DNA of 64,000 nucleotides from Leeuwenhoekiella aequorea (GTDB lineage Bacteria > Bacteroidota > Bacteroidia > Flavobacteriales > Flavobacteriaceae). The stretch covers positions 186,001 through 250,000 of the forward strand of contig NZ_QOVM01000006.1 in assembly GCF_004104375.1 (NCBI RefSeq), written 5' to 3'. Position 1 is the first letter of the stretch; each line of letters begins with the position of its first letter. A program made the position numbers and the translations under genes. This document shows positions 3,850 to 33,281 of the stretch, piece by piece. Under the pieces are notes generated by a model. The model saw only the letters and a program-made list of their open reading frames with translations. It was not told the origin of the DNA and ran no database searches.

Positions 3850-5082
3850 ATGAGAAATATATTTGTGCTTTGGCTATGCTTGTTAGGCATCCTTTTAAAT
3901 TCGTGCAAACAATCAACTACTGAAAAGCCGGAAGAACCTATAGATAACTTGGCGTTTATTGAGGAAGAACTTCAGTTTGCTGATAAGCAATTAAGCGGAC
4001 TCCTGACAAAGGCAAAGGCTGCAAATAAAAATCCCCGTACGGTAGAAAAAGATTCTTCCATCTATTTTATTGATAGCACTTCATTTGATTGGACCGAAGG
4101 TTTTTTCCCAGGGACCTGCTGGTATTTATATGAAGCGACTCAGGATACAAAATGGAAAGAAGCAGCAATTCATTTTCAGAGCTTATATAAAGATCACAAA
4201 GATTTACCTGCTTTTCATGATCTAGGATTTGTCTTTAATTGCTCGTATGGAAATGGAAACCGTATTGCGCCTAATGATGATTATAAAACAATTTTGATCG
4301 ATGCAGCAAATACGCTTGCAAATAGATATGATGCTCGGGTGGGAAGTATAAAGAGCTGGGATGCAGACAAGGGATGGCAGGCAGATAGAAACTGGGAATA
4401 TCCTGTGATTATAGATAATATGATGAATTTGGAGTTGCTTTATGAAGCGTCAATCTTGACTTCAGATTCAACTTTTGCGCAGATTGCAAATGCCCATGCA
4501 GATAAAACAATGGCAAATCATTACCGGTCAGATTACAGTTCGTATCACGTTGTAGATTATGATTCTATTTCTGGTGAAGTACGCAAAAAAGAAACCGCCC
4601 AGGGATTTGCAGATTCTAGTTCATGGGCACGTGGTCAAGCTTGGGGCTTATACGGTTTTACGCTTTGTTATAAATATACAAATGACAAGAAGTATCTTGA
4701 TATGGCAGAGAATATTGCAGCTTATATTTTAAATTCAAAAGAATTGCCAGATGATAAAATACCGTATTGGGATTATCATACACCAGATAAAACAATAACG
4801 CCAAGAGATGTATCTGCGGCGGCTGTAACCGCTTCAGCACTAATAAAACTAAATGAGTTTACCTCCGGAAAATATGAGGAGGAAGCATTAGAAATTGTAA
4901 AAACACTAGCAACACCAGCATATAAAGCAGAGCTGGGAGCTAACAAGAATTTTTTATTAAAACACAGCGTTGGTAGTATCCCTCACGATAATGAAATTGA
5001 TGTTCCGCTTAACTACGCCGATTATTATTATATAGAAGCGCTTTTGGGTCTGAAAAACTGTTATTCAAAAAAAAAGCAATAA
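3850..5082 (+). CDS. GH88 unsaturated glucuronyl hydrolase, lipoprotein
   Basis: 410 aa. GH88 enzymes remove the 4,5-unsaturated uronic acid that lyases leave at the non-reducing end of glycosaminoglycan oligosaccharides. The signal peptide ends in a lipobox (LLNSC, Cys19), so the enzyme is membrane-anchored outside the cytoplasm. Family blocks are visible: FDWTEGFFPGTCWYLYEAT (about 78-96), HDLGF with Asp124, IIDNMMNLELL with Asp189, and SSWARGQAWGLYGF (about 257-270). Asp124 and Asp189 fit the two catalytic acids of characterised unsaturated glucuronyl hydrolases. The gene opens PUL 1 and is followed after 8 bp by the CBM9-like gene. It pairs functionally with the PL8 lyase at 19226-22291. 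No operator copy was found upstream. Confidence 0.9.
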   Translation: MRNIFVLWLCLLGILLNSCKQSTTEKPEEPIDNLAFIEEELQFADKQLSGLLTKAKAANKNPRTVEKDSSIYFIDSTSFDWTEGFFPGTCWYLYEATQDTKWKEAAIHFQSLYKDHKDLPAFHDLGFVFNCSYGNGNRIAPNDDYKTILIDAANTLANRYDARVGSIKSWDADKGWQADRNWEYPVIIDNMMNLELLYEASILTSDSTFAQIANAHADKTMANHYRSDYSSYHVVDYDSISGEVRKKETAQGFADSSSWARGQAWGLYGFTLCYKYTNDKKYLDMAENIAAYILNSKELPDDKIPYWDYHTPDKTITPRDVSAAAVTASALIKLNEFTSGKYEEEALEIVKTLATPAYKAELGANKNFLLKHSVGSIPHDNEIDVPLNYADYYYIEALLGLKNCYSKKKQ

Positions 5083-5090
5083 TTACAAAG

Positions 5091-5741
5091 ATGAATACGC
5101 CACTATATAATGTAAAAAAAGCAACAGAAGTAACACTCAGCGGTAACGTAGATGATCCACAATGGAATGTAGCTAATAATCTTACAGACTTTAAATCTCC
5201 TTGGGATAATAAACCGGTAGATCCTATCTCATTTAGAGCGTTATATGATGAAGAATATCTTTATTTCAGCTTTATAGTAGCCGATAATGAGGTTTATACA
5301 GATTTAAAAGATGATAGTAAAGAAAGTATTGCACAGTCAGATCGGGTGGAGTTATTCTTAAGATCAGATTATTTATTAGATCCGTATTACTGTTTAGAAA
5401 TAGATACGCAACCCCGAGTAATGGATTTTTTAGCTCGACCTAATCGGGATTTTGATCTCGGCTGGAGTTGGCCTGCAGCTGGCATAGAAGTAAAATCTGC
5501 TATAGATGAACAAAAATTTTCAGTAGAAGGCAAACTGAGTTTAGCTTCTTTAAAAACACTCAATTTGCTTAAGCAAGACAAATTGGGGTATTACCTCGAA
5601 GTAGGGGTTTATCGGGCAAAATATACCAGAGAAACTACCGGACAAAACAAGGCAACTTGGATTACTTGGGTAGATCCACAAACCGAACATCCGGAGTTTC
5701 ATATCAAAGATTCGTTCGGAGTATTCCGTTTAGAACCTTAG
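5091..5741 (+). CDS. CBM9-like sugar-binding domain protein
   Basis: 216 aa, made almost entirely of a CBM9-like domain (carbohydrate-binding family 9-like, as at the ends of many PUL proteins). Visible blocks are a start of the type 'DDPQW..ANNLTDFKSPWDNKP', the strand ALYDEEYLYFSFIVAD and the SDRVELFL segment near 83-90. There is no signal peptide, which is odd for a glycan-binding module. It follows GH88 by 8 bp and is probably translated from the same mRNA. Its stop overlaps the 3' end of the convergent LacI gene by 4 bp. The ligand is unknown; a periplasmic role would need a non-classical route, or the true product may act inside the cell. Confidence 0.7.
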   Translation: MNTPLYNVKKATEVTLSGNVDDPQWNVANNLTDFKSPWDNKPVDPISFRALYDEEYLYFSFIVADNEVYTDLKDDSKESIAQSDRVELFLRSDYLLDPYYCLEIDTQPRVMDFLARPNRDFDLGWSWPAAGIEVKSAIDEQKFSVEGKLSLASLKTLNLLKQDKLGYYLEVGVYRAKYTRETTGQNKATWITWVDPQTEHPEFHIKDSFGVFRLEP

Positions 5742-6787
5742 TTTAAATATTGCGGAAAGTTTTCGGTATTTATAATATCAATAGGAAGTAAAACTGATTC
5801 CTGCAATGGCTTATCAAAAAGAAAAAATTCAATAAGATTTGTTAAACTCAGATATACCTGTTTCTTAGGATCTTGATGAATTAAAAATGCAATTTTGTTT
5901 TCTTCGAGATACTTTATATTTTCAGAAACAAGATCATACCCTATGATAACACTGTCTGGTGTATAAGTTGCGATATGATTTGCGATTAAATATGCTTTTG
6001 ATGTGGTTACAAAAATACCGTCAATAGGATCAATAGATTTTAAAAAGTTTTCTATGGTTTGATCAAAGGTGATTTTTGATTCTTTCTTTAAATTATGAAC
6101 ATCTATTTTAAAATCAAGCTTTTTATTCAGATTAAAAAAATCTTTAAAACCACGTTCTTTTTCCTGCATATGTGATGCATTTTGGAAGGCTTCATCAATG
6201 TGTAAAATAGCTATAGAACCAGATTTACCAAGCAGCATATTGAATAACTTTGCTGCAACACGACCACTCTGAAACAAATCCTGACCTATTTCAAAATTAA
6301 TCTTGTGATCTTTAATATAATTGTTGAACGTGGCAATTTTAATATCTGCTTCTACACAGCGTTTAGCAACATTCTCTGCTTCTATGTAAAACAAAGGAAC
6401 CATTAAAATAGCATCTGGTTTAGAATCAATTAAGGCATCTGCAGCTTTTTTAAATGATTTAGTGGAGCTGGGTTTAAATAAGCTCTTATGTATTTTAATC
6501 CCAAAATGGCTAAACTCATTCTCTACTTGACTTATAGCTTCATAGCACGGTTCCCAATACGGATCTGCCTCAGCATCGGGGAGTAGAATAGAGATATTGT
6601 AGTTTTTATTATTCTTAAGACTTTTAGCAATAGGATTAGGCTTATACTCAATTTTGTCAAGTACCTTATTAACCTGTTCTAATGCTGCAGGAGAAACCTT
6701 TCCTCGCTTATGAATTACACGGTCTACAGTGCCTTTAGATACTCCTGCCATTTCAGCAATATCTTTAATGGTGTAATTTTCTTTCAT
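5738..6787 (-). CDS. LacI-family transcription regulator of PUL 1
   Basis: 349 aa. The N-terminal helix-turn-helix (TIKDIAEMAGVSKGTVDRVI, residues 5-24) and hinge helix region (YKPNPIAKSLKNN, about 48-60) are typical of LacI/GalR proteins. The rest is a periplasmic-binding-protein-like effector domain. The TVDRVIH variant of the recognition helix is seen in Bacteroidetes PUL regulators. Upstream of its ATG lie two copies of a palindrome centred on TCGA (6828-6843 and 6852-6865), and a third lies before susC at 22388. This suggests that the protein binds there, controls itself, the divergent catabolic operon and susCD. The effector is probably an amino sugar or disaccharide from the polymer. 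Confidence 0.9.
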   Translation of the reverse strand: MKENYTIKDIAEMAGVSKGTVDRVIHKRGKVSPAALEQVNKVLDKIEYKPNPIAKSLKNNKNYNISILLPDAEADPYWEPCYEAISQVENEFSHFGIKIHKSLFKPSSTKSFKKAADALIDSKPDAILMVPLFYIEAENVAKRCVEADIKIATFNNYIKDHKINFEIGQDLFQSGRVAAKLFNMLLGKSGSIAILHIDEAFQNASHMQEKERGFKDFFNLNKKLDFKIDVHNLKKESKITFDQTIENFLKSIDPIDGIFVTTSKAYLIANHIATYTPDSVIIGYDLVSENIKYLEENKIAFLIHQDPKKQVYLSLTNLIEFFLFDKPLQESVLLPIDIINTENFPQYLN

Positions 6788-6827: not shown

Positions 6828-6843
6828 ATGTGCTCGATAACAT
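6828..6843. promoter_or_regulatory. PUL 1 operator, copy 1 (imperfect)
   Basis: ATGTGCTCGATAACAT. It shares its left half and TCGA centre with the copies at 6852-6865 and 22389-22402, with a changed right half. Its centre is 23 bp (about two helical turns) from the next copy, so two dimers could bind the same face. It is 41 bp upstream of the LacI start codon. Confidence 0.7.
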
Positions 6844-6851
6844 AATTTATG

Positions 6852-6865
6852 TGTGTTCGAGCACA
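6852..6865. promoter_or_regulatory. PUL 1 operator, copy 2
   Basis: TGTGTTCGAGCACA, a near-perfect palindrome centred on TCGA, the reverse complement of the susC copy. It lies between the LacI gene and the divergent catabolic operon starting at 7086, so it could control both. Confidence 0.8.
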
Positions 6866-7085
6866 TTTTTATTGAAAATGCTTTTTTATAACATTATTTT
6901 TAGATAAATTGTACCAGATTTAAAGATTAAAATTGTGTGAGAGCAATATTATAATTTTATAAAATACTGAAAATTAGGTATTTAAATTATTAAATCTATT
7001 TGAAATTTTATTCGGTTAATAAAGTGCTCTTTTTAGAGATTTGACAATTTATTAACTAACCATCTAATTATTGAAAATAACCTTT

Positions 7086-8012
7086 ATGTCATTAGAAAAT
7101 CAAAATACCAAAGGGCCAACACTCGTAATTCTTGCAGCTGGAATAGGTAGTCGATACGGCGGCTTAAAGCAGCTGGACACTTTTTCACCTCAAGGAGATA
7201 CTATTATAGATTTTTCAATTTATGATGCGCTTCAGGCAGGTTTTAAAAAGATTGTATTTATCATAAGAGAGAATTTGTTAGAAGAGTTTAAAGAAGTATT
7301 TGAACCTAAACTTAAAGGTAAAGCATCTGTAGATTATGTTTTTCAAGAGTTAGATCGCGTTCCTGAAGCGTATATAGATGACAAACGCACAAAACCCTGG
7401 GGAACGGGTCACGCCTTATTACTTACTAAAGACGTGGTAAAAGAAAACTTTGCAATTATTAATGCAGATGATTTTTATGGGAGACAATCATTTATCACAA
7501 TGGCAAATGCGCTTATTGCTACAGATTGTGATTCTTACCATTTTAATATGGTGGCTTTTAAACTGAAAAATACCGTGTCAGATCACGGTTATGTGTCTAG
7601 AGGGGTGTGTACGGTTTCAAAAGAGGGAAACTTAGAAGATGTTACCGAACGGACACATATAGAAAAGCAAGGAGATAAAATCCTGGTAGAAGCCGAAGAT
7701 GGAGTGCTAGAACCAATGGATCCCGATACCTTTGTGTCAATGAATTTTTGGGGATTTACACCTAAATGTTTTGAATTTGGCTGGGAGTTATTTAACGAGT
7801 TTTTAGAAAAGAGTAAGGGAAATAGTAAAGCCGAATTTTTTATTCCATCAGTAGTAAATGAAATGCTTCGTGCAGATCAAGTACAGGTCGAAGTCTTAAG
7901 TACTCCAGAAAAGTGGTTTGGTGTTACCTACAAAGAGGATAAGGCAATCGCACAGGCAGAAATTAAAAAATTAAAGGATAATAATATATATCCTGTGAAC
8001 TTATGGGAGTAG
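7086..8012 (+). CDS. Sugar-1-phosphate nucleotidyltransferase
   Basis: 308 aa, cytoplasmic. The N-terminus LVILAAGIGSRYGGLKQL is the nucleotide-binding signature of NTP-transferases (GxGxR, then Lys). Asn-Ala-Asp-Asp (INADDFYG) is the metal-binding block. Such enzymes make UDP- or other NDP-sugars from sugar-1-phosphates and can run backwards. The ATG at 7086 is preferred to an in-frame TTG at 7071. The last 10 bp overlap the kinase gene. With the kinase and epimerase it would interconvert GalNAc-1-P or GlcNAc-1-P and the UDP-sugars. Exact sugar and nucleotide are inferred from context only. Confidence 0.8.
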   Translation: MSLENQNTKGPTLVILAAGIGSRYGGLKQLDTFSPQGDTIIDFSIYDALQAGFKKIVFIIRENLLEEFKEVFEPKLKGKASVDYVFQELDRVPEAYIDDKRTKPWGTGHALLLTKDVVKENFAIINADDFYGRQSFITMANALIATDCDSYHFNMVAFKLKNTVSDHGYVSRGVCTVSKEGNLEDVTERTHIEKQGDKILVEAEDGVLEPMDPDTFVSMNFWGFTPKCFEFGWELFNEFLEKSKGNSKAEFFIPSVVNEMLRADQVQVEVLSTPEKWFGVTYKEDKAIAQAEIKKLKDNNIYPVNLWE

Positions 8013-9118
8013 ATAACAACCAAATTATAACTGAGGTTTTCAACGCTTTCTTGCACAATAGTTCACTAGTTGGTATTTCCGAATTTTCAAGCGGACATAT
8101 TAACGATACCTATTTTATACAAACTGAAGAGCAAACAGATTTTGTTTTGCAACGTATAAATAGTGATGTATTTAAAAATGTACCTGAGTTAGTTTCTAAT
8201 AAAGTGAAAATCAGCAAGCACTTAGCGTCAAAAGTTCCGCATTTAACAGAACAAGAGTTGCGCAGAGCAGTACTTACTTTTGTGCCTACTTTAGCGGGTA
8301 ACTATTATCACTTGGATGCGCAGGGGAATTTCTGGAACCTTACCTATTACATAGCAGATAGTCAAAGTTATGATACGGTTACGCATAAAGAAATTGCGTA
8401 TGAGGGAGGAAAACTCTTTGGGAAATTCATTAATGACACCAGTGATTTTGACGCACAACAGTTGGTTGAAATCATCCCGGGATTTCACGATGTTCCGAAG
8501 CGACTGCAACAATTTAGAGATGCTAAAGAAAAAGCATCAGATGCGCGTTTAGCTGAAGCAAAATCGCTAATTGAACGAGTACAAGAGCTTCAGAACGAAA
8601 TGGTGCTCTTGCAGCAATTGAAAGACAATGGGGATATACCCACACGTGTCACCCACAACGACACAAAAATTTCAAACGCTTTATTTAATACAGATAATTC
8701 CGGACTCTGCGTAATAGATACAGATACGGTGATGCCGGGCATTGTGCATAATGACTTTGGTGATGCCATACGTACGATCTGTAATACAGCCGAAGAAGAT
8801 CAAAAAGATTTGAATCTGGTAAACTTTAATGTGGCTTACTATGAAGCCTATCTAAAAGGATTTTTAGAAGAGCTTCATGATTCGCTTTCAGATATAGAAA
8901 TCGCGTATTTGCCATTAGGAGCAAAAACAATAATCTTCATAATGGGACTACGTTTCTTAACAGATTATCTGGCTGGTGATGTGTATTATAAAACAGCTTA
9001 TGATATGCACAATCTAGATAGAGCAAAAAATCAATTCAAATTGATATCAAGTTTTGAGGCACAATATGAAGAAATTATAAAACTGAGTAAATCTATCCAT
9101 AAGGAAAAACAGATATGA
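8003..9118 (+). CDS. N-acetylhexosamine 1-kinase-like phosphotransferase
   Basis: 371 aa, cytoplasmic. It belongs to the aminoglycoside/choline phosphotransferase fold, and the motifs are those of NahK: FSSGHINDTYFI near 28-39, the catalytic loop THNDTKISNALF with Asp220, and VIDTDTVMPG followed by NDFGDAIR. NahK phosphorylates GlcNAc or GalNAc at the anomeric carbon using ATP. The start codon lies inside the 3' end of the nucleotidyltransferase gene and the stop overlaps the epimerase ATG (ATGA at 9115), so the three are probably translationally coupled. This strongly suggests that they act in one route. Confidence 0.8.
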   Translation: MGVDNNQIITEVFNAFLHNSSLVGISEFSSGHINDTYFIQTEEQTDFVLQRINSDVFKNVPELVSNKVKISKHLASKVPHLTEQELRRAVLTFVPTLAGNYYHLDAQGNFWNLTYYIADSQSYDTVTHKEIAYEGGKLFGKFINDTSDFDAQQLVEIIPGFHDVPKRLQQFRDAKEKASDARLAEAKSLIERVQELQNEMVLLQQLKDNGDIPTRVTHNDTKISNALFNTDNSGLCVIDTDTVMPGIVHNDFGDAIRTICNTAEEDQKDLNLVNFNVAYYEAYLKGFLEELHDSLSDIEIAYLPLGAKTIIFIMGLRFLTDYLAGDVYYKTAYDMHNLDRAKNQFKLISSFEAQYEEIIKLSKSIHKEKQI

Positions 9119-10056
9119 AAAAATATGTAATCACTGGAGGAGCCGGTTTTATAGGCAGTCATATTGCTGAAAAATTGGTCAATGACGGAAACGAAGTTGT
9201 CGTATTAGATAATTTGCGTACCGGTTTTAAAAAGAATGTAGCTCCCTTTAACCTTCAATTTGAGCAAGTAGATATTCGGGATGAGCAAGCTGTGAACAAC
9301 TATGTAAAAGGTGCTTCAGCAATATTTCACCTTGCAGCTTTAGTAAGTGTACCAGAATCTATCGAGAAAATAGGAGAATGCAATTCAATTAATGCGCAAG
9401 GAACTATTAATGTTCTGGAAGCAGCAAAGAATACAGGAGATTGTAAAGTTGTTTTATCATCTTCTGCAGCAAATTATGGGGATAATCCGGTTTCACCCAA
9501 AGTGGAGACGATGACTCCTGAACCTATGACGCCCTATTCCATAACAAAACTGGATGGCGAGTATTATCTTGATATGTACCGCAATCAATTTAACGTGCCT
9601 ACAACCTCATTGCGATATTTTAATGTATTTGGTCCACGACAAAATCCAAAGTCTGCTTATGCAGCTGTTGTGCCCATTTTTATATTAAATGCTTTACAGA
9701 ATAAACCTTTAGTAATCTACGGTGACGGAGAGCAAACCAGAGATTTTATTTATGTTAAAGATGTTGTAGCAGCAAACCTTCTGGCATCACAAACTGGGAA
9801 AGGAGTGTACAACGTAGCTTTAGGAAATAGTACATCTGTTCTTGAGTTAGCAGAATTTATCATAAAACTTACTAATTCAAAATCTGAAATCAAGTTTTTA
9901 GATACTAGAGCAGGAGATATAAAACATTCTCAGGCAAATCCTAAAAAGTTTCAGAATGAAGGGTTTACACCAAAATATACTATTGAAGAAGGCTTAATCG
10001 AAACGATCGCTTTTTATGAAAGCGAATTAGTTGCACAAGTAAACAGCAATCTATAA
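9115..10056 (+). CDS. UDP-N-acetylhexosamine 4-epimerase (GalE/WbpP-like)
   Basis: 313 aa, cytoplasmic. An extended short-chain dehydrogenase fold: NAD-binding GGAGFIGSH at 8-16, SSSAANYGD near 120-128, and the catalytic YxxxK pair Tyr141/Lys145. The block LRYFNVFGPRQNP is typical of the WbpP group, which epimerises UDP-GlcNAc and UDP-GalNAc at C4. Placed directly after the kinase and nucleotidyltransferase, it would join the GalNAc and GlcNAc branches. It abuts the transporter gene with no spacer. UDP-glucose epimerase activity cannot be excluded from sequence alone. Confidence 0.85.
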   Translation: MKKYVITGGAGFIGSHIAEKLVNDGNEVVVLDNLRTGFKKNVAPFNLQFEQVDIRDEQAVNNYVKGASAIFHLAALVSVPESIEKIGECNSINAQGTINVLEAAKNTGDCKVVLSSSAANYGDNPVSPKVETMTPEPMTPYSITKLDGEYYLDMYRNQFNVPTTSLRYFNVFGPRQNPKSAYAAVVPIFILNALQNKPLVIYGDGEQTRDFIYVKDVVAANLLASQTGKGVYNVALGNSTSVLELAEFIIKLTNSKSEIKFLDTRAGDIKHSQANPKKFQNEGFTPKYTIEEGLIETIAFYESELVAQVNSNL

Positions 10057-11388
10057 ATGGCAAATACAGCTAAACATACAGCAGCACCTCAGGAATCAAA
10101 AAAAGTTTCGATTGCTATCATTGCAGGGATGTTCTTTATCCTAGGATTTGTAACTTGGATTAACGGAGCCCTAATCCCCTTTATGAAAGCTATAAATGAA
10201 CTTACAGATCAGCAATCTTACCTGGTAGCTTCTGCATCTTATATCTCGTTTGTAGTTATGGCTTTGCCAGCTTCTGCAATTTTAAAGAAGATAGGCTATT
10301 GTAAAGGAATGTCTTTGGGCTTATTTATAATGGGGTTAGGAGCACTTGTTTTTATTCCTGCTGCCGAGGCAAGAACCTATTCTTATTTTCTTATAGGAAT
10401 TTTTATTCAGGGTGCCGGTATGACTTTGCTTCAGACCGCCGTAAACCCATACATTACCATTCTAGGTCCCATAAAAAGTGCGGCTAAGCGTATCGCAATT
10501 ATGGGAATTTCTAATAAAGTCGCTGGAGCATTAGGTTCTTTAATTTTTGGAGCTTTATTGCTTTCGGGTATTGAGGCTACTCAGGAGAAGATAAAATCTG
10601 TAGAAGCCACTGAAAAATCGCTTTTATTAGATCAAATGGCAGACAGTGTAGTCTGGCCATATCTGGTAATGGCATTATGTCTATTTATTTTTGCATTTCT
10701 TATACGTAAAGCTCCGTTACCAGACTTAGAAGCAAATGAATCTGATACACCGGGTGCAGCAACTTCTAAGAAATCAGTTCTGCAGTATCCACATCTGTTA
10801 TTTGGAGTATTAGCCTTGTTTGTATATGTAGGTGTTGAGGTAATTGCAGGAGATAGTATTATTTCTTATGGTTTAGCACTCGGTTTTCCTGCAGAGCAAT
10901 CTAAATTTTTTACCAGTTATACCTTATTAGCAATGGTTTGCTCTTATGGACTGGGGATATTTTTAATACCAAAATATATAGAACAACGCAACGCCTTAAT
11001 AGCAAGTGCAGTTCTGGGTATAATTCTTAGTTTTTTAATAATCAATACTACAGGACTTACTTCCGTTTTATTTGTAGCTGCGTTGGGTATTGCAAATGCA
11101 ATGGTATGGCCTGCAATATGGCCGCTGGCATTAGATAATCTGGGCAAGCATACAAAAACAGGTTCTGCTTTATTAGTGATGGGTATTTCGGGTGGTGCAT
11201 TAATTCCGCCACTCTACGGAAGATTAGTAGATACCAATAAAGAAGACTTAATTCAGGAAGGTGTGACCACTGCTGAAGTTGCAGGTGAAGCCGCAAATTC
11301 TGGATATATTATTTTAATTCCCTGTTATCTCATTATTCTATTTTTTGCAATCTGGGGTTGCAGAATCAAAAGTTGGTCAAAAACATAA
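10057..11388 (+). CDS. MFS sugar transporter, FucP/NagP type
   Basis: 443 aa, inner membrane, about 12 transmembrane segments. The first segment (IIAGMFFILGFVTWINGALIP followed by FMKA) and the stretch AGMTLLQTAVNPYITILGP are hallmarks of the FucP/GluP/NagP group of proton-sugar symporters. Context points to GlcNAc and/or GalNAc as the cargo: the gene sits between the epimerase (0 bp gap) and the NagB fusion (18 bp gap). The C-terminal half keeps the matching WPAIWPLALDNLG block. Confidence 0.85.
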   Translation: MANTAKHTAAPQESKKVSIAIIAGMFFILGFVTWINGALIPFMKAINELTDQQSYLVASASYISFVVMALPASAILKKIGYCKGMSLGLFIMGLGALVFIPAAEARTYSYFLIGIFIQGAGMTLLQTAVNPYITILGPIKSAAKRIAIMGISNKVAGALGSLIFGALLLSGIEATQEKIKSVEATEKSLLLDQMADSVVWPYLVMALCLFIFAFLIRKAPLPDLEANESDTPGAATSKKSVLQYPHLLFGVLALFVYVGVEVIAGDSIISYGLALGFPAEQSKFFTSYTLLAMVCSYGLGIFLIPKYIEQRNALIASAVLGIILSFLIINTTGLTSVLFVAALGIANAMVWPAIWPLALDNLGKHTKTGSALLVMGISGGALIPPLYGRLVDTNKEDLIQEGVTTAEVAGEAANSGYIILIPCYLIILFFAIWGCRIKSWSKT

Positions 11389-11406
11389 ACAATAAAATTA
11401 ACGAGC

Positions 11407-13335
11407 ATGTTCACTAGTACAATAGATACCGCAACTGAGTTTGAAAAGCGATTTGAAAAGATAAATACACACGTGTTTGATAATTCCGCGAATGCGTCAA
11501 AAGCTGTAGCTCACGAAATTAAAAAGTTAATCGAAGACAAACAAAAAGAAAACAAGTCTTGTGTTTTAGGATTAGCAACAGGCTCTTCTCCCAAGGGTTT
11601 GTACGCAGAATTAGTGCGACTACATAAAGAAGAAGGCTTGAGCTTTAAGAATGTTATCTCTTTTAATCTGGATGAATATTATCCTATGAAAGCCGCATCT
11701 ATTCATAGCTATGTGCGGTTTATGAATGAGCAACTTTTTGATCACGTAGATATTTTAAAAGAAAACATTTACATCCCAGACGGCACACTTGAAAAAAATG
11801 AGATTGCTGCCTTTTGTAAAGAATATGAAGCAGCGATAGAACGTGTAGGAGGTATAGATTTACAAGTTTTAGGAATAGGAGGAAACGGGCACATCGGATT
11901 TAATGAGTCGGGATCACTTCAAAATTCCCGAACTCGCTTAGTGGCACTCGATCACAGTACCCGTATTGCGGCTAGCAAAGAATTTGAAGGGTTGAAAAAT
12001 ACTCCGCGTACGGCGATCACGCTTGGAGTAAGCAAAATTATGGATGCTAAGCGTGTTATTCTTTTAGCTTGGGGTGAAAGTAAATCTGCAATTGTAGCAA
12101 AGGCGGTAGAAGAAGGAATGACAAACCTAGTACCTGCCTCATTTTTACAGGAGCATCAGCAGGTAGATTTTATTTTAGATAAAGAAGCATCTTCAAATCT
12201 TACGCGTATAAATAAACCTTGGCTCGTTGAAGAAGTAGAATGGACTGATAAATTGATAAGCAAGGCAGTATTGGGTCTGGCACTTACGTTAGAAAAGCCA
12301 GTTCTTATGCTTACAGATGCAGATTACATTGAGAACGGGATGAGTGATTTGTTAGCTCAGATGGGTCCGGCATATGACATCAATATTAAAATATTTAATA
12401 AGCTACAAAATACCATCACTGGCTGGCCAGGAGGAAAACCAGGTGCAGATGACAGCAAAAGGCCAGAGCGTGCATTACCTGCAAAAAAGCGTGTACTTAT
12501 TTTTAGTCCGCATCCAGATGATGATATCATAAGTATGGGAGGGACGTTTAAGCGTTTACAAGAGCAAGGACACGAAGTTCATGTGGCTTATCAGACTTCA
12601 GGAAATATTGCCGTTGCCGATGATGAAGCCATACGTTTTGCAAAATTTATCACAGATTATAACGAGGCATTTAATATTTCGTGTGATGAAGCTAAAGCGA
12701 TTTATACAAAGAGTTTCGACTTCTTAAAAAACAAGGAAATTGGAGGTGTTGATATTCCTGAGCTTCGTAAAATCAAAGGAATTATACGTCGTGGAGAAGC
12801 ACGAGCAACAAGCCATTTTGTAGGATTACCAGATAGTCAAATTCATTTTATGGATTTGCCATTTTATGAAACTGGTGCGGTAGAGAAAAATCCTTTAGGT
12901 GAAGAAGATATTAATCTTACCATAGCGCTTATCGAAGAAATAAAACCACATCAGATTTATGCAGCAGGTGATCTAGCAGATCCACATGGTACACATAAGG
13001 TATGTTTAGACGCCATTTTTGAAGCTTTAAAACAAATCAAGCACAAAGACTTTATGAAAGACTGCTGGTTATGGTTGTATCGAGGAGCGTGGCAAGAATG
13101 GGGTATCGATGAGATCGATATGGCTGTACCTATGGGACCAGATCAAGTTATAGAAAAACGCTTTGGAATATTTAAACACCAGTCGCAAAAAGATGGTGTT
13201 GTATTTCAGGGAGCAGATAGTCGCGAGTTCTGGCAGCGTGCAGAAGACCGTAACAGAGAAACAGCAGAATTATATGATAAGCTGGGATTAGCGCATTATG
13301 CGGCTATGGAAGCTTTTGTAAAATGGGAATATTAA
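11407..13335 (+). CDS. nagB: NagB deaminase fused to PIG-L/LmbE-type deacetylase
   Basis: 642 aa, cytoplasmic. Residues 1 to about 280 are glucosamine-6-phosphate deaminase: phosphate loop LATGSSPKG, NLDEYY with Asp89, and GNGHIGFNE with His162 and Glu167. Residues about 365-642 form a PIG-L/LmbE zinc deacetylase domain with HPDDD at 369-373 and a HxxH pair at His527/His530, so its metal site looks complete. A middle linker of about 80 residues joins them. Two-domain proteins of this kind are known in Bacteroidetes. No NagA amidohydrolase is present in the window, so one chain could both deacetylate GlcNAc-6-P and deaminate GlcN-6-P to fructose-6-P; that is inference. The gene lies 9 bp before the mutase. 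Confidence 0.88.
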   Translation: MFTSTIDTATEFEKRFEKINTHVFDNSANASKAVAHEIKKLIEDKQKENKSCVLGLATGSSPKGLYAELVRLHKEEGLSFKNVISFNLDEYYPMKAASIHSYVRFMNEQLFDHVDILKENIYIPDGTLEKNEIAAFCKEYEAAIERVGGIDLQVLGIGGNGHIGFNESGSLQNSRTRLVALDHSTRIAASKEFEGLKNTPRTAITLGVSKIMDAKRVILLAWGESKSAIVAKAVEEGMTNLVPASFLQEHQQVDFILDKEASSNLTRINKPWLVEEVEWTDKLISKAVLGLALTLEKPVLMLTDADYIENGMSDLLAQMGPAYDINIKIFNKLQNTITGWPGGKPGADDSKRPERALPAKKRVLIFSPHPDDDIISMGGTFKRLQEQGHEVHVAYQTSGNIAVADDEAIRFAKFITDYNEAFNISCDEAKAIYTKSFDFLKNKEIGGVDIPELRKIKGIIRRGEARATSHFVGLPDSQIHFMDLPFYETGAVEKNPLGEEDINLTIALIEEIKPHQIYAAGDLADPHGTHKVCLDAIFEALKQIKHKDFMKDCWLWLYRGAWQEWGIDEIDMAVPMGPDQVIEKRFGIFKHQSQKDGVVFQGADSREFWQRAEDRNRETAELYDKLGLAHYAAMEAFVKWEY

Positions 13336-13344
13336 ACAGCTGAT

Positions 13345-14730
13345 ATGACATTAATTAAATCAATTTCAGGGATCAGAGGAACCATTGGTGGTAAAACAGG
13401 TGATAATTTAACTCCCTTAGATACTGTAAAATTTGCAGCAGCTTACGGCACGTGGTTAAAGCAGGAAAATGGGCAGGAGCAGATTACAATTGTAATAGGT
13501 CGTGACGCCCGTTTATCTGGATCTATGGTTAGTGGTTTGATATGCAATACACTTACTGGTCTGGGAATAGATGTAATAGATTTAGGCTTATCTACAACTC
13601 CTACGGTAGAGCTTGCTGTAGTGCGCGAGAACGTTCAAGGTGGAATAATTGTAACTGCTAGTCATAATCCTAAACAATGGAATGCATTAAAGCTTCTTAA
13701 TCATAAAGGTGAATTTTTAAATGCTGAAGAAGGAAGCAAAATTATTGAATTTGCCGAAAAAGACATTTTTGAATTTGCTTCTGTAGATGAATTAGGGAGT
13801 TATACGGTTAACTCAAATGCAATAAATGCGCATATTGATGAGGTACTTGCCTTAGAGCATGTTGCAGTAGATGCAATTAAAGCTAAAGGTTTTAAAGTAG
13901 TTGTAGATGCTGTAAATTCTACTGGTGGAATTGCTATTCCTGCTTTACTTGATAAATTGGGCGTTACTTGTATTCCATTATATTGCGAACCTACCGGGCA
14001 TTTTCCGCATAATCCAGAGCCCTTAGCCGAACATCTTAAAGCCATCTCTGAGCGTGTAATTAAAGAAAAAGCAGATTTAGGATTTGTAGTTGATCCAGAT
14101 GTAGATCGTCTTGCAATTGTAAATGAAGATGGAAGCATGTTTGGAGAAGAATATACACTTGTTGCCTGTGCAGACTATATTCTGGGTAAAAATCCGGGAA
14201 CTACGGTTTCTAATTTATCCTCTACGCGTGTACTTAATGATGTCACTGTTGAACACGGTCAGCATTATTATGCAAGTGCAGTAGGAGAGGTGAATGTGGT
14301 TACAAAGATGAAAGAAGTGAATGCAGTAATAGGTGGAGAAGGTAACGGAGGTATCATTTACCCAGACTCTCACTTCGGGCGCGATGCTTTGGTAGGTATA
14401 GCTTTATTCTTATCTCATCTGGCAGAAACCGGTAAAAGCTGTAAAGAATTACGAGAATCATATCCGGCTTATTATATAGCTAAAGAAAAAATCGAATTAC
14501 CGCCAGCTACCGATATTGATTCGTTATTAAGTCAGATTCAAAAAGTCTATGCAAATGAGGAAATAAATACCATAGACGGTACAAAAATTATTTTTCAGAA
14601 TAAAGAATGGGTTCATATGCGTAAATCTAATACAGAACCTATTGTACGCATTTATGCTGAAAGTGCATCGCCAGAGAAAGCAGATGAACTAGCTCAATTA
14701 ATGATTAAAACTATTTCAGATTTAGTATAG
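13345..14730 (+). CDS. Phosphoglucosamine/phosphohexose mutase
   Basis: 461 aa, cytoplasmic. All four active-site blocks of the alpha-D-phosphohexomutase family are visible: phosphoserine loop TASHNP with Ser106, metal loop DPDVDRLAI (about residues 250-258), sugar loop GEGNGG near 331-336 and phosphate loop RKSNTEPIVRIY near the C-terminus. The opening IKSISGIRGTIGG resembles GlmM-type enzymes. In this operon it most likely turns GlcNAc-1-P into GlcNAc-6-P, feeding the NagB fusion encoded just upstream. Its stop overlaps the GTG of the next gene by one base. Confidence 0.85.
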   Translation: MTLIKSISGIRGTIGGKTGDNLTPLDTVKFAAAYGTWLKQENGQEQITIVIGRDARLSGSMVSGLICNTLTGLGIDVIDLGLSTTPTVELAVVRENVQGGIIVTASHNPKQWNALKLLNHKGEFLNAEEGSKIIEFAEKDIFEFASVDELGSYTVNSNAINAHIDEVLALEHVAVDAIKAKGFKVVVDAVNSTGGIAIPALLDKLGVTCIPLYCEPTGHFPHNPEPLAEHLKAISERVIKEKADLGFVVDPDVDRLAIVNEDGSMFGEEYTLVACADYILGKNPGTTVSNLSSTRVLNDVTVEHGQHYYASAVGEVNVVTKMKEVNAVIGGEGNGGIIYPDSHFGRDALVGIALFLSHLAETGKSCKELRESYPAYYIAKEKIELPPATDIDSLLSQIQKVYANEEINTIDGTKIIFQNKEWVHMRKSNTEPIVRIYAESASPEKADELAQLMIKTISDLV

Positions 14731-17805: not shown

Positions 17806-19221
17806 ATGGAAAATAATCGAAGAAAATTTATGAAGTTAACCTCTATCGGAGCTGTAGGTCTGATGGGAGGTTCTATTTTAGCCCGAGAAGCTAATTTAAC
17901 CTTTCCAGGTTCTAAATCTTCAGTGCCGGGCATTTCTTCATTTAATATGTCTGGCTATTCGGCACCTAAACTAGATGAAGTACGCATAGGTTTTATAGGT
18001 CTGGGAATGCGTGGCCCAGGTGCAGTGAAGCGTATGAGTCTTATTGAAGGAGTTTCAATAAAAGGCTTGTGTGATCTTCGTGAAGAAAGTGTTTTAAAAT
18101 CTAAAGCGTTATTAAAAGATACTAAGCATAATCCCGATTTATATTCGGGTAGTGCCTATGCCTGGAAAGAAATGGTAGATCGGGATGATATCGATTTAAT
18201 TTACATCGCTACTCCCTGGGACTGGCATACGCCAATGGCTGTCTATGCTATGGAAGCAGGAAAACACGTTGCTGTAGAAGTACCTGCCTCAAAAACGATT
18301 GACGAAGCATGGGAACTGGTAGAAACTTCAGAACGTACTAAAAAGCATTGTATGATGCTTGAAAACTGTTGCTATGACTTTTTTGAGCTGCTTACTCTCA
18401 ATATGGCCCGTCAGAATTATTTTGGAGATATTATACACGGCGAAGGAGCTTACATTCATAATTTGCTTGATCTTAATTTTGATAAAGAAGAAGGTTACCA
18501 GGGTATGTGGCGTCTGGAAGAAAATGCTACGCGCAACGGAAACTTATATCCTACTCACGGTTTAGGTCCTATTTGCCAGATTATGAATATTAATCGTGGG
18601 GACCGTATGGATTACTTAAATTCTCTCTCTTCTGCAGATTTTGATATGCAGAAGAGAGCCAAACAGCGAGCAAATACAGATCCATTTTTTTCTGATTATG
18701 CAAATAAAAATTTCAGAGGAAATATGAATACAACGCTCATAAAAACCAAAATGGGCAGAAGTATCATGGTACAACACGATGTGAGTTCGCCAAGACCCTA
18801 TTCACGAATTCATATGGTAAGCGGCACCAAAGCTTTTGCTCAGAAATGGCCTACACCCGGTAAAGTAGCGGTAAACGATATCTGGCTTACCGAGAAAGAA
18901 ATGGCAGGTATTGAAGAAAAATATACTCCCGAACTAGTCAAAAAAGTAGGAAACCTTGCTAAAAAAATAGGAGGCCATGGCGGAATGGATTTTATAATGG
19001 ACTGGAGGCTTATTGATTGTTTACGTAATGGATTACCTCTTGATCAAGATGTGTATGATGCAGCTCTGTGGAGTTCTGTAGGAACTTTAAGTGAACAGTC
19101 TGTAGCAAACAGATCTAACTCTGTCGATGTTCCAGATTTTACAAGAGGTAACTGGAAATCTAATAAACCCGTAGATATAGGTTTACAGGGAGCCGGAAAC
19201 ACATCAGTAAATTTTAAATAG
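17806..19221 (+). CDS. GH109 NAD-dependent glycosidase (alpha-N-acetylgalactosaminidase type)
   Basis: 471 aa with a twin-arginine-type leader (NNRRKFMKLT). GH109 enzymes use a tightly bound NAD and a redox-elimination mechanism to release terminal N-acetylgalactosamine. The sequence follows the family closely: RIGFIGLGMRGPGAVKRM near 61-78, IYIATPWDWHTPMAVYAME, EVPASKTIDEAWELVE, MMLENCCYDFFELLTLNMAR and GNLYPTHGLGPICQ. These blocks separate it from ordinary Gfo/Idh oxidoreductases such as that at 56206-57654. It would supply GalNAc to the kinase-epimerase route encoded upstream. The gap to the PL8 gene is 4 bp. Confidence 0.88.
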   Translation: MENNRRKFMKLTSIGAVGLMGGSILAREANLTFPGSKSSVPGISSFNMSGYSAPKLDEVRIGFIGLGMRGPGAVKRMSLIEGVSIKGLCDLREESVLKSKALLKDTKHNPDLYSGSAYAWKEMVDRDDIDLIYIATPWDWHTPMAVYAMEAGKHVAVEVPASKTIDEAWELVETSERTKKHCMMLENCCYDFFELLTLNMARQNYFGDIIHGEGAYIHNLLDLNFDKEEGYQGMWRLEENATRNGNLYPTHGLGPICQIMNINRGDRMDYLNSLSSADFDMQKRAKQRANTDPFFSDYANKNFRGNMNTTLIKTKMGRSIMVQHDVSSPRPYSRIHMVSGTKAFAQKWPTPGKVAVNDIWLTEKEMAGIEEKYTPELVKKVGNLAKKIGGHGGMDFIMDWRLIDCLRNGLPLDQDVYDAALWSSVGTLSEQSVANRSNSVDVPDFTRGNWKSNKPVDIGLQGAGNTSVNFK

Positions 19222-19225
19222 AACA

Positions 19226-22200
19226 ATGTTTATGTATGCAAACTGCTTAATAGGTTTTTTAATCTCTATTTTGGTGAATATTTGGTTTCCTGGGCTTTAT
19301 GCTCAGGATTTAAAACCTATTAAATTGGTTTTTGAAAATGAGAACGAACTTTCAAAACTAGGCAGTGATGCAAATAGTAGCCTTACTCTAAGTGATAAAC
19401 ATTATCACTTTGGTAAGGCTTCCTTAAAATGGAATTTTAAAAATAACAGTTATATAACATCCGGATTTAGCGTACTCAGTGAAGCTGAAAGTCCACTAGC
19501 ATATGGAGATTATTTTCCGAATAGTCCCACTACAAGTATTTCTATTTATAACGAGCAACCACAAGAGGGGAAACTCCGGTTCTCCTACGGAACTTCAGAA
19601 AATAGAGATCAGGTATGGTTTGATATTAACCTAGAATTTACAGGCTGGAGAACGATTTGGGTTCCTTATTATGAGATGGAAGGAGATACTCCTGAGCGAA
19701 ATACACAGATTAATTTTAATTCTTTTAAAGTTCAAGCAATCGATGTAGTTACGGGAAGTATCTATTTTGATGATATAGTTTTTTCTCAATATCAGGATGA
19801 TCGTTACGCATATCCAGATTTTTTAGTTCCCTTTATTAAAACCGATTTTGCTGCAGAGCAAGATCACTGGATGCCGTCATTAGTCTATTATCAATCGATA
19901 AAAAATCTTGAGGTGACTAAGATATCTTCCGAAGCGCAAGCAGAATTAATAGCGATTGAAAACCGATTACAGAAGCGCTTAAAAATAAAAGATACAATCA
20001 CAGAAAAATTAGGTTCTGCTACTGCTGCCTATGATAAATTAGATCTCGATGTGGGACAGACCGTAAAAGGCAGACCGGTCTCCTTTAGAAATGGTGAGAC
20101 TTATTTTGAGGAGACACCTAAATATGATGAAGATTATATCGAAGTTCATCGTTTGGGGCAAATCATGCTTAAACTCGCAGAAATTCATACAATCGCTGAT
20201 GCTGAAACTAAAGAAAGAGTTTCGGAATATTTTATTAATGCGACACGTTATTTTTTGGATCAGGGATGGCAGGCAGGCTCTTCGGGAGGAACGCGTCATC
20301 ATATAGGCTATAGCTTAGAAGACATTGCTGTTGCCTTTTTTATTATGAGGAAACCACTAGAAAATGCACAGTTATTAAATGAAGTAGGAGATAGCATGCA
20401 ATGGGTTTTTAATCTGGGTAAAATTCTTGCAGATGAAGATGACTTCGTAGCCAATATCGATTATTTTAATACGCAGTCGTTCTATCATTTGATGATTATT
20501 TACATGCGGTCTGATTACAATGAGATCGCAGCTTTATTAGAAAAATACAGCCAGTATATGTCAATTACCTTGGCGCAGGATAATGTACATGGGGTATTTA
20601 AAAAAGACGGTACATCCTGGCATCACGGAGGCCATTACCCTGCCTATGGTATGGGCGCTTTTAAAAATTTACCTAAAGTGTTTAGAACGCTTGCAAGCAC
20701 CCGCTATCAAATAGGAACAGACGGGCATCAAAACTTTAAAAAAGCATTACTTACCACACGATTATATAGCAATACCTATGATTTTGGGTTTGCAAATGCA
20801 GGAAGACATCCACTTGAAGACAATTCTATAGAATTTTTAGAACCTCAGTTTAGAGATATGATTTTTTCTGGTAATCCAGAACATACCTCAACAATAGATA
20901 CTGATTTTGGAAGTGCGTATTTGAGATTGTGGGGTAGTGGTAATCCTAAAATGCAAAACGAACTAAAAAATGATTACAATCTCGAAGCAGAAGAGCTACC
21001 TGGTTATCATACCTTACCGTATGCGGCTACAGCAATTCACAGGAGAAATGACTGGGCGGCTATTTTAAAGGGATATAGTAAATATGTATGGGCATCAGAA
21101 ATCTATATAGCTTCTAATCGCTACGGAAGATACCCAGCAAATGGAACAATACAACTACTTTCTGAAAAAGGTGAAGAAAAAAGCGGCTTTAATCAATTGG
21201 GTTGGGATTGGAATAGATATCCCGGGGCTACTATAATTTACTTGCCATTAGAGGAATTGGAATCAGATTTATCACTTTTGATGTTTAAATCAAATCAAAC
21301 CTTTGCAGGAGCAGTACAACAAAATAATAACGGAGTATTTGCAATGATCCTAGATGAAAGTTCTGGCTCAAATGCAGATGGTCAGCGCGGAACTTATAGT
21401 TTCCCAGGAAAATTAAAAGCTCATAAATCTGTTTTTTCTTTCGGAGATAAATTGATTTGTATAGGAAGTTCTATTAATAGTATAGACGAGAATCACGATG
21501 TTGAGACGGTACTTTTTCAGAATAATTTAAACCACGCTACCAGATCTATATACGCAGATGTTACTGGGACAGTACAGAAATCACCTTTTACCAATTCGTG
21601 GAAAAGTACGGCAAAGGATGGATGGTTAATCGATGCATACAAAAATGCATATCACATTTTATCTGCAAGTACCATACATCTTAAACAAACTAATCAAAAA
21701 TCATATCACAATAAATATTCTATAAATACGGGAAAAATGAATCCCAAAGGAAATGGTGTTCAGGAAACTTCTGGAGATTATGGAGTGGCTTATATAAATC
21801 ACGGCAAAGCACCTAAAGATGAATCATATCAATATGTAATATATCCCTTCAGCGCTGAAAGCCGATTGACACAAATCGAAAATGGGAACTTTAAAGATTC
21901 GAGTTACAAAATATTGAATGCAACCCGGCAAGCACATATTGTTTTTGATAGAGAGAGTACCACAACCGGCTATGTAGTTTTTGATGAAGATTATCAAGTA
22001 AATAATGGAATATTAAAAAGTGTAAGTGATCCCGCAATGCTTATGATCAAAGAGGTTGATGCAAAAAATATTAGTGTAAGTATTGTACAACCAGATTTAA
22101 ATTTTAAAACAATAGAAGGTATAGAAACACCGGGAGAAGGTCACGAGTTAAAGTTTGAAGCTACTATAAGAGGTATATGGCAGCTAGATACAATAAATGA

Positions 22201-22291
22201 GCAAGTGAGTATAGATCATTCAAAATCAAATACCACGATACAAATTACTGTAAAAGATGGAGCCACAAATACACTTCATCTCTCAAAATAA
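19226..22291 (+). CDS. PL8 polysaccharide lyase, chondroitin ABC lyase-like
   Basis: 1021 aa, signal peptide ending LYAQ (about 27). PL8 lyases cleave hyaluronan and chondroitin-type chains by beta-elimination, leaving an unsaturated uronate. The catalytic region DGTSWHHGGHYPAYGMGAFK parallels the DGTAWRHEGNYPGY segment of Proteus chondroitin ABC lyase: His467 and Tyr474 have the same 7-residue spacing, and Arg527 in AGRHP lies 60 residues on (59 in the Proteus enzyme). An N-terminal beta domain (about 30-200) and C-terminal beta-sandwich domains flank the helical toroid. The length is that of ABC-type rather than AC-type lyases. Hyaluronan versus chondroitin cannot be decided here. Confidence 0.88.
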   Translation: MFMYANCLIGFLISILVNIWFPGLYAQDLKPIKLVFENENELSKLGSDANSSLTLSDKHYHFGKASLKWNFKNNSYITSGFSVLSEAESPLAYGDYFPNSPTTSISIYNEQPQEGKLRFSYGTSENRDQVWFDINLEFTGWRTIWVPYYEMEGDTPERNTQINFNSFKVQAIDVVTGSIYFDDIVFSQYQDDRYAYPDFLVPFIKTDFAAEQDHWMPSLVYYQSIKNLEVTKISSEAQAELIAIENRLQKRLKIKDTITEKLGSATAAYDKLDLDVGQTVKGRPVSFRNGETYFEETPKYDEDYIEVHRLGQIMLKLAEIHTIADAETKERVSEYFINATRYFLDQGWQAGSSGGTRHHIGYSLEDIAVAFFIMRKPLENAQLLNEVGDSMQWVFNLGKILADEDDFVANIDYFNTQSFYHLMIIYMRSDYNEIAALLEKYSQYMSITLAQDNVHGVFKKDGTSWHHGGHYPAYGMGAFKNLPKVFRTLASTRYQIGTDGHQNFKKALLTTRLYSNTYDFGFANAGRHPLEDNSIEFLEPQFRDMIFSGNPEHTSTIDTDFGSAYLRLWGSGNPKMQNELKNDYNLEAEELPGYHTLPYAATAIHRRNDWAAILKGYSKYVWASEIYIASNRYGRYPANGTIQLLSEKGEEKSGFNQLGWDWNRYPGATIIYLPLEELESDLSLLMFKSNQTFAGAVQQNNNGVFAMILDESSGSNADGQRGTYSFPGKLKAHKSVFSFGDKLICIGSSINSIDENHDVETVLFQNNLNHATRSIYADVTGTVQKSPFTNSWKSTAKDGWLIDAYKNAYHILSASTIHLKQTNQKSYHNKYSINTGKMNPKGNGVQETSGDYGVAYINHGKAPKDESYQYVIYPFSAESRLTQIENGNFKDSSYKILNATRQAHIVFDRESTTTGYVVFDEDYQVNNGILKSVSDPAMLMIKEVDAKNISVSIVQPDLNFKTIEGIETPGEGHELKFEATIRGIWQLDTINEQVSIDHSKSNTTIQITVKDGATNTLHLSK

Positions 22292-22387: not shown

Positions 22388-22403
22388 ATGTGCTCGAACA
22401 CAT
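22388..22403. promoter_or_regulatory. PUL 1 operator, copy 3, before susC
   Basis: ATGTGCTCGAACACAT, palindromic about TCGA, matching the two copies beside the LacI gene (6828-6865). It lies 152 bp before the susC start and 97 bp after the PL8 stop, in a 263-bp gap, so susC-susD-cstA-GH20 is probably a second transcription unit under the same regulator. Confidence 0.8.
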
Positions 22404-30696: not shown

Positions 30697-30730
30697 TTAA
30701 GCCGGTAGTTTTTAAAAACTACCGGCTTAA
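30697..30730. terminator. Bidirectional terminator, 34-bp perfect palindrome
   Basis: Arms 30697-30713 and 30714-30730 are exact reverse complements (core TTAAGCCGGTAGTTTTT). Past it the plus strand continues with a T-rich stretch. It lies between the convergent GH20 and UvrA-like genes; the UvrA-like stop codon (TAG at 30719-30721) lies inside the palindrome. Confidence 0.8.
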
Positions 30731-33244: not shown

Positions 33245-33281
33245 AAACGGCGAAGGTGCAATAAATATACCAATGCGTGTT

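Follow-up and report, generated by a model that had tools for sequence, protein, structure and literature searches.

A candidate operon for N-acetylgalactosamine catabolism through 1-phosphates and UDP-sugars beside a chondroitin-type polysaccharide utilisation locus of Leeuwenhoekiella aequorea

The 64-kb window (the whole stretch of Leeuwenhoekiella aequorea DNA that was analysed, from contig NZ_QOVM01000006.1) contained six intact, close-packed + strand open reading frames (ORFs) at 7086-14730, which an earlier note on this DNA had read as a complete route for N-acetylgalactosamine (GalNAc) and N-acetylglucosamine (GlcNAc) through 1-phosphates and uridine diphosphate (UDP) sugars. The junctions in the ORF list were, in order, a 10-bp overlap, a 4-bp overlap, 0 bp, an 18-bp gap and a 9-bp gap, in agreement with the six tightly packed genes and two overlapping junctions described in that note. 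The first gene (7086..8012, +) encoded a sugar-1-phosphate nucleotidyltransferase of the 3pnn family (PF00483; PDB 3pnn, E 1.7e-87), a proposed UDP-N-acetylhexosamine (UDP-HexNAc) pyrophosphorylase; it starts with the ATG at 7086, and the longer alternative is an in-frame TTG at 7071. The following genes encoded a NahK-like N-acetylhexosamine (HexNAc) 1-kinase of the aminoglycoside phosphotransferase (APH) fold (8003..9118, +; PDB 4wh1, E 2.7e-63), a predicted WbpP-type UDP-HexNAc 4-epimerase of the extended short-chain dehydrogenase/reductase (SDR) type (9115..10056, +), a NagP/GluP-like major facilitator superfamily (MFS) sugar porter (10057..11388, +), a NagB/PIG-L fusion proposed as deaminase and deacetylase (11407..13335, +; NF002557/PRK02122, 1053 bits) and a GlmM-type phosphohexosamine mutase (13345..14730, +), the second copy in the genome. 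Catalytic motifs were present in the operon enzymes on sequence inspection. A LacI-family regulator gene (5738..6787, -; PF00356, 53.7 bits; PF13407, 111 bits) was divergent from the operon. The source genome (G000; 3.46 Mb, 99.77% complete) gave one kinase match and one fusion match.

All three strong PDB matches of the kinase were N-acetylhexosamine 1-kinases, and the best of them, 4wh1, aligned over residues 4-357. The kinase residues D220 and R317 correspond in the alignment to D208 and R306 of 4wh1, the catalytic residues of NahK, and were invariant in 24 kinases. The near-full-chain homology and the aligned Asp/Arg pair place the protein with NahK and support a homologue predicted to form GalNAc-1-phosphate and GlcNAc-1-phosphate. 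The nearest solved relative of the transferase was 3pnn of Porphyromonas gingivalis, which is labelled only "conserved domain protein" or "glycosyltransferase" and belongs to an uncharacterised family. The AlphaFold model of the transferase (pLDDT 92.8) had a VIA-align Z of 39.4 to 3pnn, with the next match at 23.9. The fold did not narrow down nucleotide or sugar, as RmlA, GalU, GlmU and cytidylyltransferases all scored alike after 3pnn (Z 22-24). No MurU entry was present among the 3 phmmer PDB matches (E <= 0.001) or among the 50 VIA matches listed. The term "GlmU/GalU-type" in the earlier note was too specific for this NTP_transferase-domain protein (PF00483), which grouped with 3pnn and beyond that was about equally close in fold to RmlA, GalU and GlmU.

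The PDB matches of the epimerase were led by 6dnt (226 bits), followed by WbgU (195) and WbpP (192). According to the accessible part of PMC6668579, the C5-pocket residue is Cys or Ser in epimerases of groups 2 and 3, and the C2-pocket residue is Asn in bifidobacterial GalE and Ala in WbpP. With the pocket columns matched to the residue numbers of that paper by our own reading, the operon epimerase carried a small C5-pocket residue, Ser (in GDIKHSQAN), and a small C2-pocket residue, Ala (in AYAAVVP), which is the combination of group 3 (WbpP-type); WbgU has the same letters. A 40% identical epimerase paralogue on contig C7 also had Ser and Ala, while the GalE candidate of the genome had Ala (C5) and Asn (C2), which is not the group 3 combination. 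These features support a WbpP-type UDP-HexNAc 4-epimerase with a predicted preference for UDP-HexNAc.

Of 296 Bacteroidota genomes (E <= 1e-20), 46 had the kinase and 52 the transferase; 45 had both, one only the kinase and seven only the transferase (Fisher p 1.5e-44 for co-occurrence, relatedness ignored). The counts bear on a reading by bifidobacterial logic, in which chromosomal GalT and GalE would handle the kinase product and the operon transferase and epimerase would serve another sugar. A GalT match (G000:C1:579075) does adjoin the GalE candidate on contig C1, but the transferase accompanied the kinase in 45 of the 46 genomes, one genome (G029) had kinase and transferase with no GalT match, and the group 3 pocket residues occurred in the operon epimerase and not in the GalE candidate, so that we regard this reading as very improbable.

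Between the LacI gene and the transferase, ahead of the operon, a near-palindrome, TGTGTTCGAGCACA (6852..6865), was found as a putative LacI operator. A divergent LacI neighbour, 47-77% identical, was present in kinase loci L039, L040, L041, L096, L098, L100 and L104, and TGTGTTCGAGCACA occurred in all 8 of the 8 loci with a divergent upstream LacI gene, the window included (seven identical, L098 with one change); L123, whose LacI gene flanks the kinase on the opposite side, was not counted. Exact matches to TGTGYTCGARCACA numbered 2 in the window and 0 in 100 shuffles, the match at 6852-6865 being there by construction, as the pattern was read off that site. At <=1 mismatch, the 3.46-Mb genome contained two sites only, one ahead of the operon and one (TGTGCTCGAACACA, 22389..22402) ahead of the gene for a SusC-like TonB-dependent receptor (22555..25707, +; PF07715, PF13715) in the adjoining polysaccharide utilisation locus (PUL). 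A second, weaker putative copy (TGTGCTCGATAACA, 6829..6842; 2 mismatches) was alone not above chance, and a further 2-mismatch copy at 22728, within the SusC coding region, may be chance. At 3 mismatches the window gave 5 matches against a shuffle mean of 5.22, which is not above chance; only exact and one-mismatch sites therefore carry weight.

Two other genomes (G174 and G206) had six operator sites each, all of them around the operon (within 14 kb) and one pair of them between GlmM and SusC; L096 had a second exact site in the same interval, and G107 had one site, at the operon. The reversed-pattern control gave 1, 0, 1 and 2 sites in G000, G174, G206 and G107, respectively, so that single one-mismatch sites can be chance. 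Promoter-like sites (41 against 52.3 in shuffles) and terminator-like sites (8 against 8.8) in the window were not above chance. As the only two genome sites lie at the operon and at SusC, they tie the operon to the PUL with its chondroitinase, GH88 and GH109 genes, and the local regulator of LacI type very probably acts on the PUL uptake gene as well as on the operon; we infer its sign and its inducer. In G206 (L200, 6095-7456), a gene for a DUF4874/DUF4832 protein and a GH109-like gene stood behind a SusCD pair following the same operator, which suggests that this relative has a different GalNAc-containing substrate.

The MFS porter scored 422 bits on the NagP model NF046060, below the cut-off of 625 for membership, and 272 bits on the broader GluP-subfamily model TIGR01272, above its cut-off. 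The fusion carried both NagB and PIG-L motif sets, and its PIG-L part gave a weak, short match (30.8 bits, 52 residues) to diacetylchitobiose deacetylase. Across the source genome, the best NagA match reached 30.7 bits (cut-off 225.65), too low for a classical Nag pathway, and AgaS, the marker of the Aga/tagatose pathway, had no TIGR02815 match at E <= 0.001. The absence of NagA and AgaS stated in the earlier note was thus borne out genome-wide; its absence of a tagatose route agrees with the result for AgaS, the one enzyme that the test covered. As to the absence of NagK, a ROK protein of the same window scored 53.9 bits on a GlcNAc kinase model with a cut-off of 380. With a whole-protein query (E <= 1e-60), the fusion was found in 39 of the 46 kinase genomes and 82 of the 250 others; the weakest of these 121 genomes had a best E of 8.0e-83 and may hold NagB alone, and the other 120 had best E <= 2.1e-130. 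A general replacement of NagA by the PIG-L fusion was not supported, as NagA was found in 29 of the 121 fusion genomes and 21 of the 175 others.

The operon mutase passed the archaeal-type GlmM (phosphoglucosamine mutase) model TIGR03990 with 518 bits (cut-off 439), and the other GlmM copy of the genome (G000:C2:417802) was 65% identical to it. Among ten chosen genomes, two close GlmM copies were present in G000, G174 and G206, which are the genomes with GlmM in the operon, and one copy in G107, G198, G029, G021, G025 and G057, six further genomes from the same family; G178 had one close copy and a distant match (28% identity). A separate catabolic GlmM clade was not supported either: on a poorly resolved tree in which two long branches meet, the operon label needed 3 changes, and 17 of 500 shuffles did as well.

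These two proteins could also act in the other order, with PIG-L deacetylating GlcNAc-1-phosphate to glucosamine-1-phosphate (GlcN-1-P), GlmM converting it to glucosamine-6-phosphate (GlcN-6-P) and NagB deaminating the product. PIG-L-type enzymes accept 1-substituted GlcNAc, and the operon GlmM passes a phosphoglucosamine mutase model, does not stand apart from the housekeeping GlmMs and would have glucosamine phosphates as its usual substrate pair; a Spirochaete locus (L157) moreover has a lone PIG-L gene beside a SIS gene downstream of the kinase. We nevertheless hold this order unlikely, in view of the 82 of 250 genomes that have the fusion without the kinase, where GlcNAc is expected as the 6-phosphate.

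Synteny was examined in two partly overlapping sets of kinase loci (n=40 and n=80; L044 = L116, L046 = L126), in which all counts are lower bounds because several loci are truncated at the end of a contig or stretch. The transferase was within 2.5 kb of the kinase in 21/40 and 26/80 loci; an epimerase with 45% identity or more was found no further than 5 kb away in 2/40 and 7/80. The full six-gene order with the divergent LacI gene was found in 4 of 120 other kinase loci (L039, L040, L096 and L100), which argues that the arrangement is not chance. In Leeuwenhoekiella polynyae (L096), the proteins from transferase to GlmM were 74-90% identical to those of the window, and Flavicella sediminum (L100) had, besides the full order, a PL8 piece (53% identity) at the stretch edge. 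Polaribacter (L098), Gelidibacter (L104), L041 and L042 had operon variants without the epimerase. A Lentisphaeria contig (L153), from beyond the phylum, united the genes for LacI, transferase, kinase, epimerase (51%) and NagB, and kinase and epimerase were paired in L145, L150 and L157, likewise outside the Bacteroidota.

The kinase cluster of L157, from a groundwater Spirochaete, comprised epimerase, GH20-like, Gfo/Idh/MocA, CBM9, PFK, lone PIG-L and SIS genes and is apparently a different solution for the later pathway steps. On a Persicobacter psychrovividus plasmid (L177), the second gene downstream of a NahK-like kinase, at 13295-14275, encoded a DUF4922 (PF16269) protein, and the 12 annotated features listed there included no nucleotidyltransferase; we would guess that the DUF4922 protein is an alternative nucleotidyl-transfer enzyme. 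GH109-like genes lay within 6 kb of the kinase in 17/40 and 4/80 loci, a neighbourhood that is only suggestive, as the count has no control and may include other Gfo/Idh/MocA proteins.

In stretches such as L043, L099, L101 and L107, the kinase-transferase pair was present without other operon genes. Such pairs would fit a salvage role, in which kinase and transferase make UDP-GalNAc and UDP-GlcNAc for envelopes, as AmgK and MurU do for N-acetylmuramic acid (MurNAc), and the mutase and NagB/PIG-L form a separate GlcNAc module. A member of the 3pnn family exists in P. gingivalis, and the accessible text of PMC7670621 gives an AmgK/MurU precedent in Tannerella forsythia. The operator common to the operon and SusC and the second GlmM that accompanies the operon in the genomes compared speak against salvage, as does the blocked growth on GalNAc of a Bacteroides thetaiotaomicron (B. 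theta) kinase deletion mutant in the accessible part of PMC11992087; salvage appears quite improbable.

We therefore prefer, at a probability of roughly 0.6, an inducible operon for the catabolism of GalNAc (and GlcNAc), serving sugars released by the adjoining chondroitin-type PUL, in which a transferase using uridine triphosphate (UTP) replaces the bifidobacterial GalT. The porter would import HexNAc and the kinase would convert it to HexNAc-1-phosphate; the 3pnn-family transferase would then use UTP to make UDP-GalNAc from GalNAc-1-phosphate, and the epimerase would turn this into UDP-GlcNAc. The same transferase, or a putative housekeeping GlmU, would run in reverse with the pyrophosphate (PPi) just made and release GlcNAc-1-phosphate and UTP. 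Provided that this pyrophosphorylase reaction is reversible, UTP and PPi would thus cycle, and the net cost would be one ATP. The second GlmM would form GlcNAc-6-phosphate, the PIG-L domain would deacetylate it to GlcN-6-P and the NagB domain would deaminate the latter to fructose-6-phosphate, with the LacI-family regulator predicted to act on the operon and the SusC gene through the common operator. We infer every substrate, the reversal of the transferase and the order of mutase and deacetylase from homology and gene context, and the weakest links are the transferase substrates, the reversal and the position of PIG-L before or after the mutase. The passage of GalNAc through 1-phosphates and UDP-sugars, as claimed in the earlier note, draws on features read directly from sequence and genome comparison (gene set, motifs, epimerase pocket residues, co-occurrence, common operator, missing NagA and AgaS), together with the kinase homology and the second GlmM; the word "complete" went too far, as the specificity and reversal of the transferase, the action of the mutase on an N-acetylated phosphosugar and the substrate of PIG-L are predicted.

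Several observations weigh against this catabolic reading. Seven genomes carry the transferase without the kinase, and the synteny counts of transferase (21/40 and 26/80) and epimerase (2/40 and 7/80) near the kinase mean that the gene set is not obligate. As 3pnn comes from P. gingivalis, which is not known to live on sugars, the transferase family reaches beyond GalNAc catabolism. The GalE candidate, with its small C5 residue (Ala), could stand in for the operon epimerase. NagA is commoner in kinase genomes (20/46 against 30/250), as it is in the fusion genomes counted above, and is thus depleted in neither, so that the fusion is no simple NagA substitute; at the chosen thresholds, five kinase genomes had no match to the fusion or to NagA. 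The tree did not separate the operon GlmMs as a clade from the housekeeping GlmMs, and there is accordingly no sign of a shift to N-acetylated substrates. Removal of the MFS gene from the B. theta locus left growth unchanged (PMC11992087, accessible part).

The neighbouring genes give the setting. Upstream, beyond the LacI gene, lay genes for a protein with a CBM9 domain and for a GH88 unsaturated glucuronyl hydrolase (3850..5082, +; PDB 3wiw, 322 bits, and 1vd5, 169 bits), which scored 23.8 bits on PF07470 (cut-off 26.6). Downstream followed, in order, an unmatched ORF, a flavin adenine dinucleotide (FAD) oxidoreductase, a GH109 protein of the alpha-N-acetylgalactosaminidase family (17806..19221, +; PF21252, 151.5 bits; PDB 6t2b, 349 bits, and 2ixa, 224 bits), a PL8 chondroitin ABC-type lyase (19226..22291, +; PDB 7eip and 1hn0, 340 bits; PF09093, PF02278, PF09092), SusC, a SusD-like lipoprotein (25718..27478, +; PF07980, 161 bits), a CstA-like protein and a GH20 beta-hexosaminidase (28952..30676, +; PF00728, 409 bits). 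The PL8, GH88, GH109, SusCD and GH20 neighbours indicate a glycosaminoglycan-type PUL, which should supply GalNAc and/or GlcNAc. The unmatched ORF (14730-15800) has a GTG start and a one-base overlap with the end of GlmM and matched neither Pfam nor NCBIfam; SusC was the next gene found after GlmM in L040 and L096, so that the ORF is no fixed member of the operon. A second SusCD region at 37587-59975, with four GH92, GH125, GH43 and a ROK protein (53.9 bits on the GlcNAc kinase model, cut-off 380), is probably an alpha-mannan or N-glycan locus. Between the two regions, at 30719-34718, a UvrA-like ABC protein of 841 aa with the UvrA DNA-binding domain, which we take to be shorter than the usual UvrA, adjoined an Asp/Glu racemase-family protein of 478 aa.

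About half of chondroitin is GalNAc, which also anchors mucin O-glycans. The B. theta protein BT4240 is a NahK-like, GalNAc-preferring kinase that phosphorylates O1, as shown on GlcNAc and inferred for GalNAc, and its deletion abolished growth on GalNAc and halved growth on chondroitin sulphate (PMC11992087, accessible part). That account stops at "downstream metabolism", and its main text nowhere mentions an epimerase, UDP-GalNAc or GlmM. No description of the transferase-epimerase-mutase set for Bacteroidota GalNAc catabolism was found in the literature searched, as judged from titles, the openings of abstracts and passages of text, with preprints and most subscription papers outside the search. 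The earlier note knew of no description of exactly this set in a PUL of the glycosaminoglycan type; for BT4240, the kinase reaction and its part in growth on GalNAc and chondroitin sulphate are already published. The palindromic LacI operator joining operon and PUL is new here. The evidence supports the operon well, both as a regulon and as a proposed pathway, which would be a variant of the NahK-type route. On a wider claim our view is evenly balanced: that this is an undescribed pathway of Bacteroidota and other phyla, in which one reversible UTP-dependent pyrophosphorylase of the 3pnn family leads into and out of the UDP form with no UDP-glucose, a catabolic GlmM runs in reverse, PIG-L-NagB serves for NagA in genomes like the present one, and the steps after BT4240 are supplied. 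The operon offers candidate enzymes for each step after the Bacteroidota kinase and points to a possible role for the 3pnn transferases, a family that is uncharacterised in spite of its solved structure. It also provides a regulator and a defined putative operator, and the whole pathway is directly testable.

Among known systems, UDP-sugar pyrophosphorylase routes of the Isselbacher type have the same logic of kinase, reversible pyrophosphorylase and epimerase, which here would act on N-acetylhexosamines. The anomeric recycling by AmgK/MurU likewise joins a 1-kinase to a nucleotidyltransferase (PMC7670621, accessible part), whereas the present genes stand in a PUL context and no MurU structure was among the PDB matches of the transferase (E <= 0.001). 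The Aga/Gam pathway (AgaA, AgaS) also catabolises GalNAc, by way of 6-phosphates and tagatose 6-phosphate, while AgaS had no match in the present genome; in a 2017 survey of gut genomes by AgaS and AgaA, only Actinobacteria, Firmicutes and Proteobacteria had the GalNAc pathway (PMC5583593, accessible part of the text). The BT4240-50 locus has in common a NahK-like GalNAc kinase, GH109 and an MFS porter and, as described in the accessible part of its source, is without transferase, epimerase, mutase and deaminase. The galacto-N-biose/lacto-N-biose (GNB/LNB) pathway of Bifidobacterium longum consists of GLNBP, NahK, GalT and GalE (PMC6668579, accessible part). No GNB/LNB phosphorylase was among the Pfam matches of ORFs of at least 150 aa at 3850-30676 (ORF 14730 unmatched), and GalT lay outside the cluster, which thus differs from that pathway. 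A NahK-type 1-kinase, uridylyl transfer and UDP-HexNAc 4-epimerisation are common to both, but here a 3pnn-family NTP-transferase stands for GalT and a WbpP-type epimerase for the GalE type, and GlmM, NagB/PIG-L and a neighbouring SusCD PUL are added. UTP and PPi would be the recycled carriers here if the transferase is reversible, in contrast to the UDP-glucose exchange of the bifidobacterial GalT.

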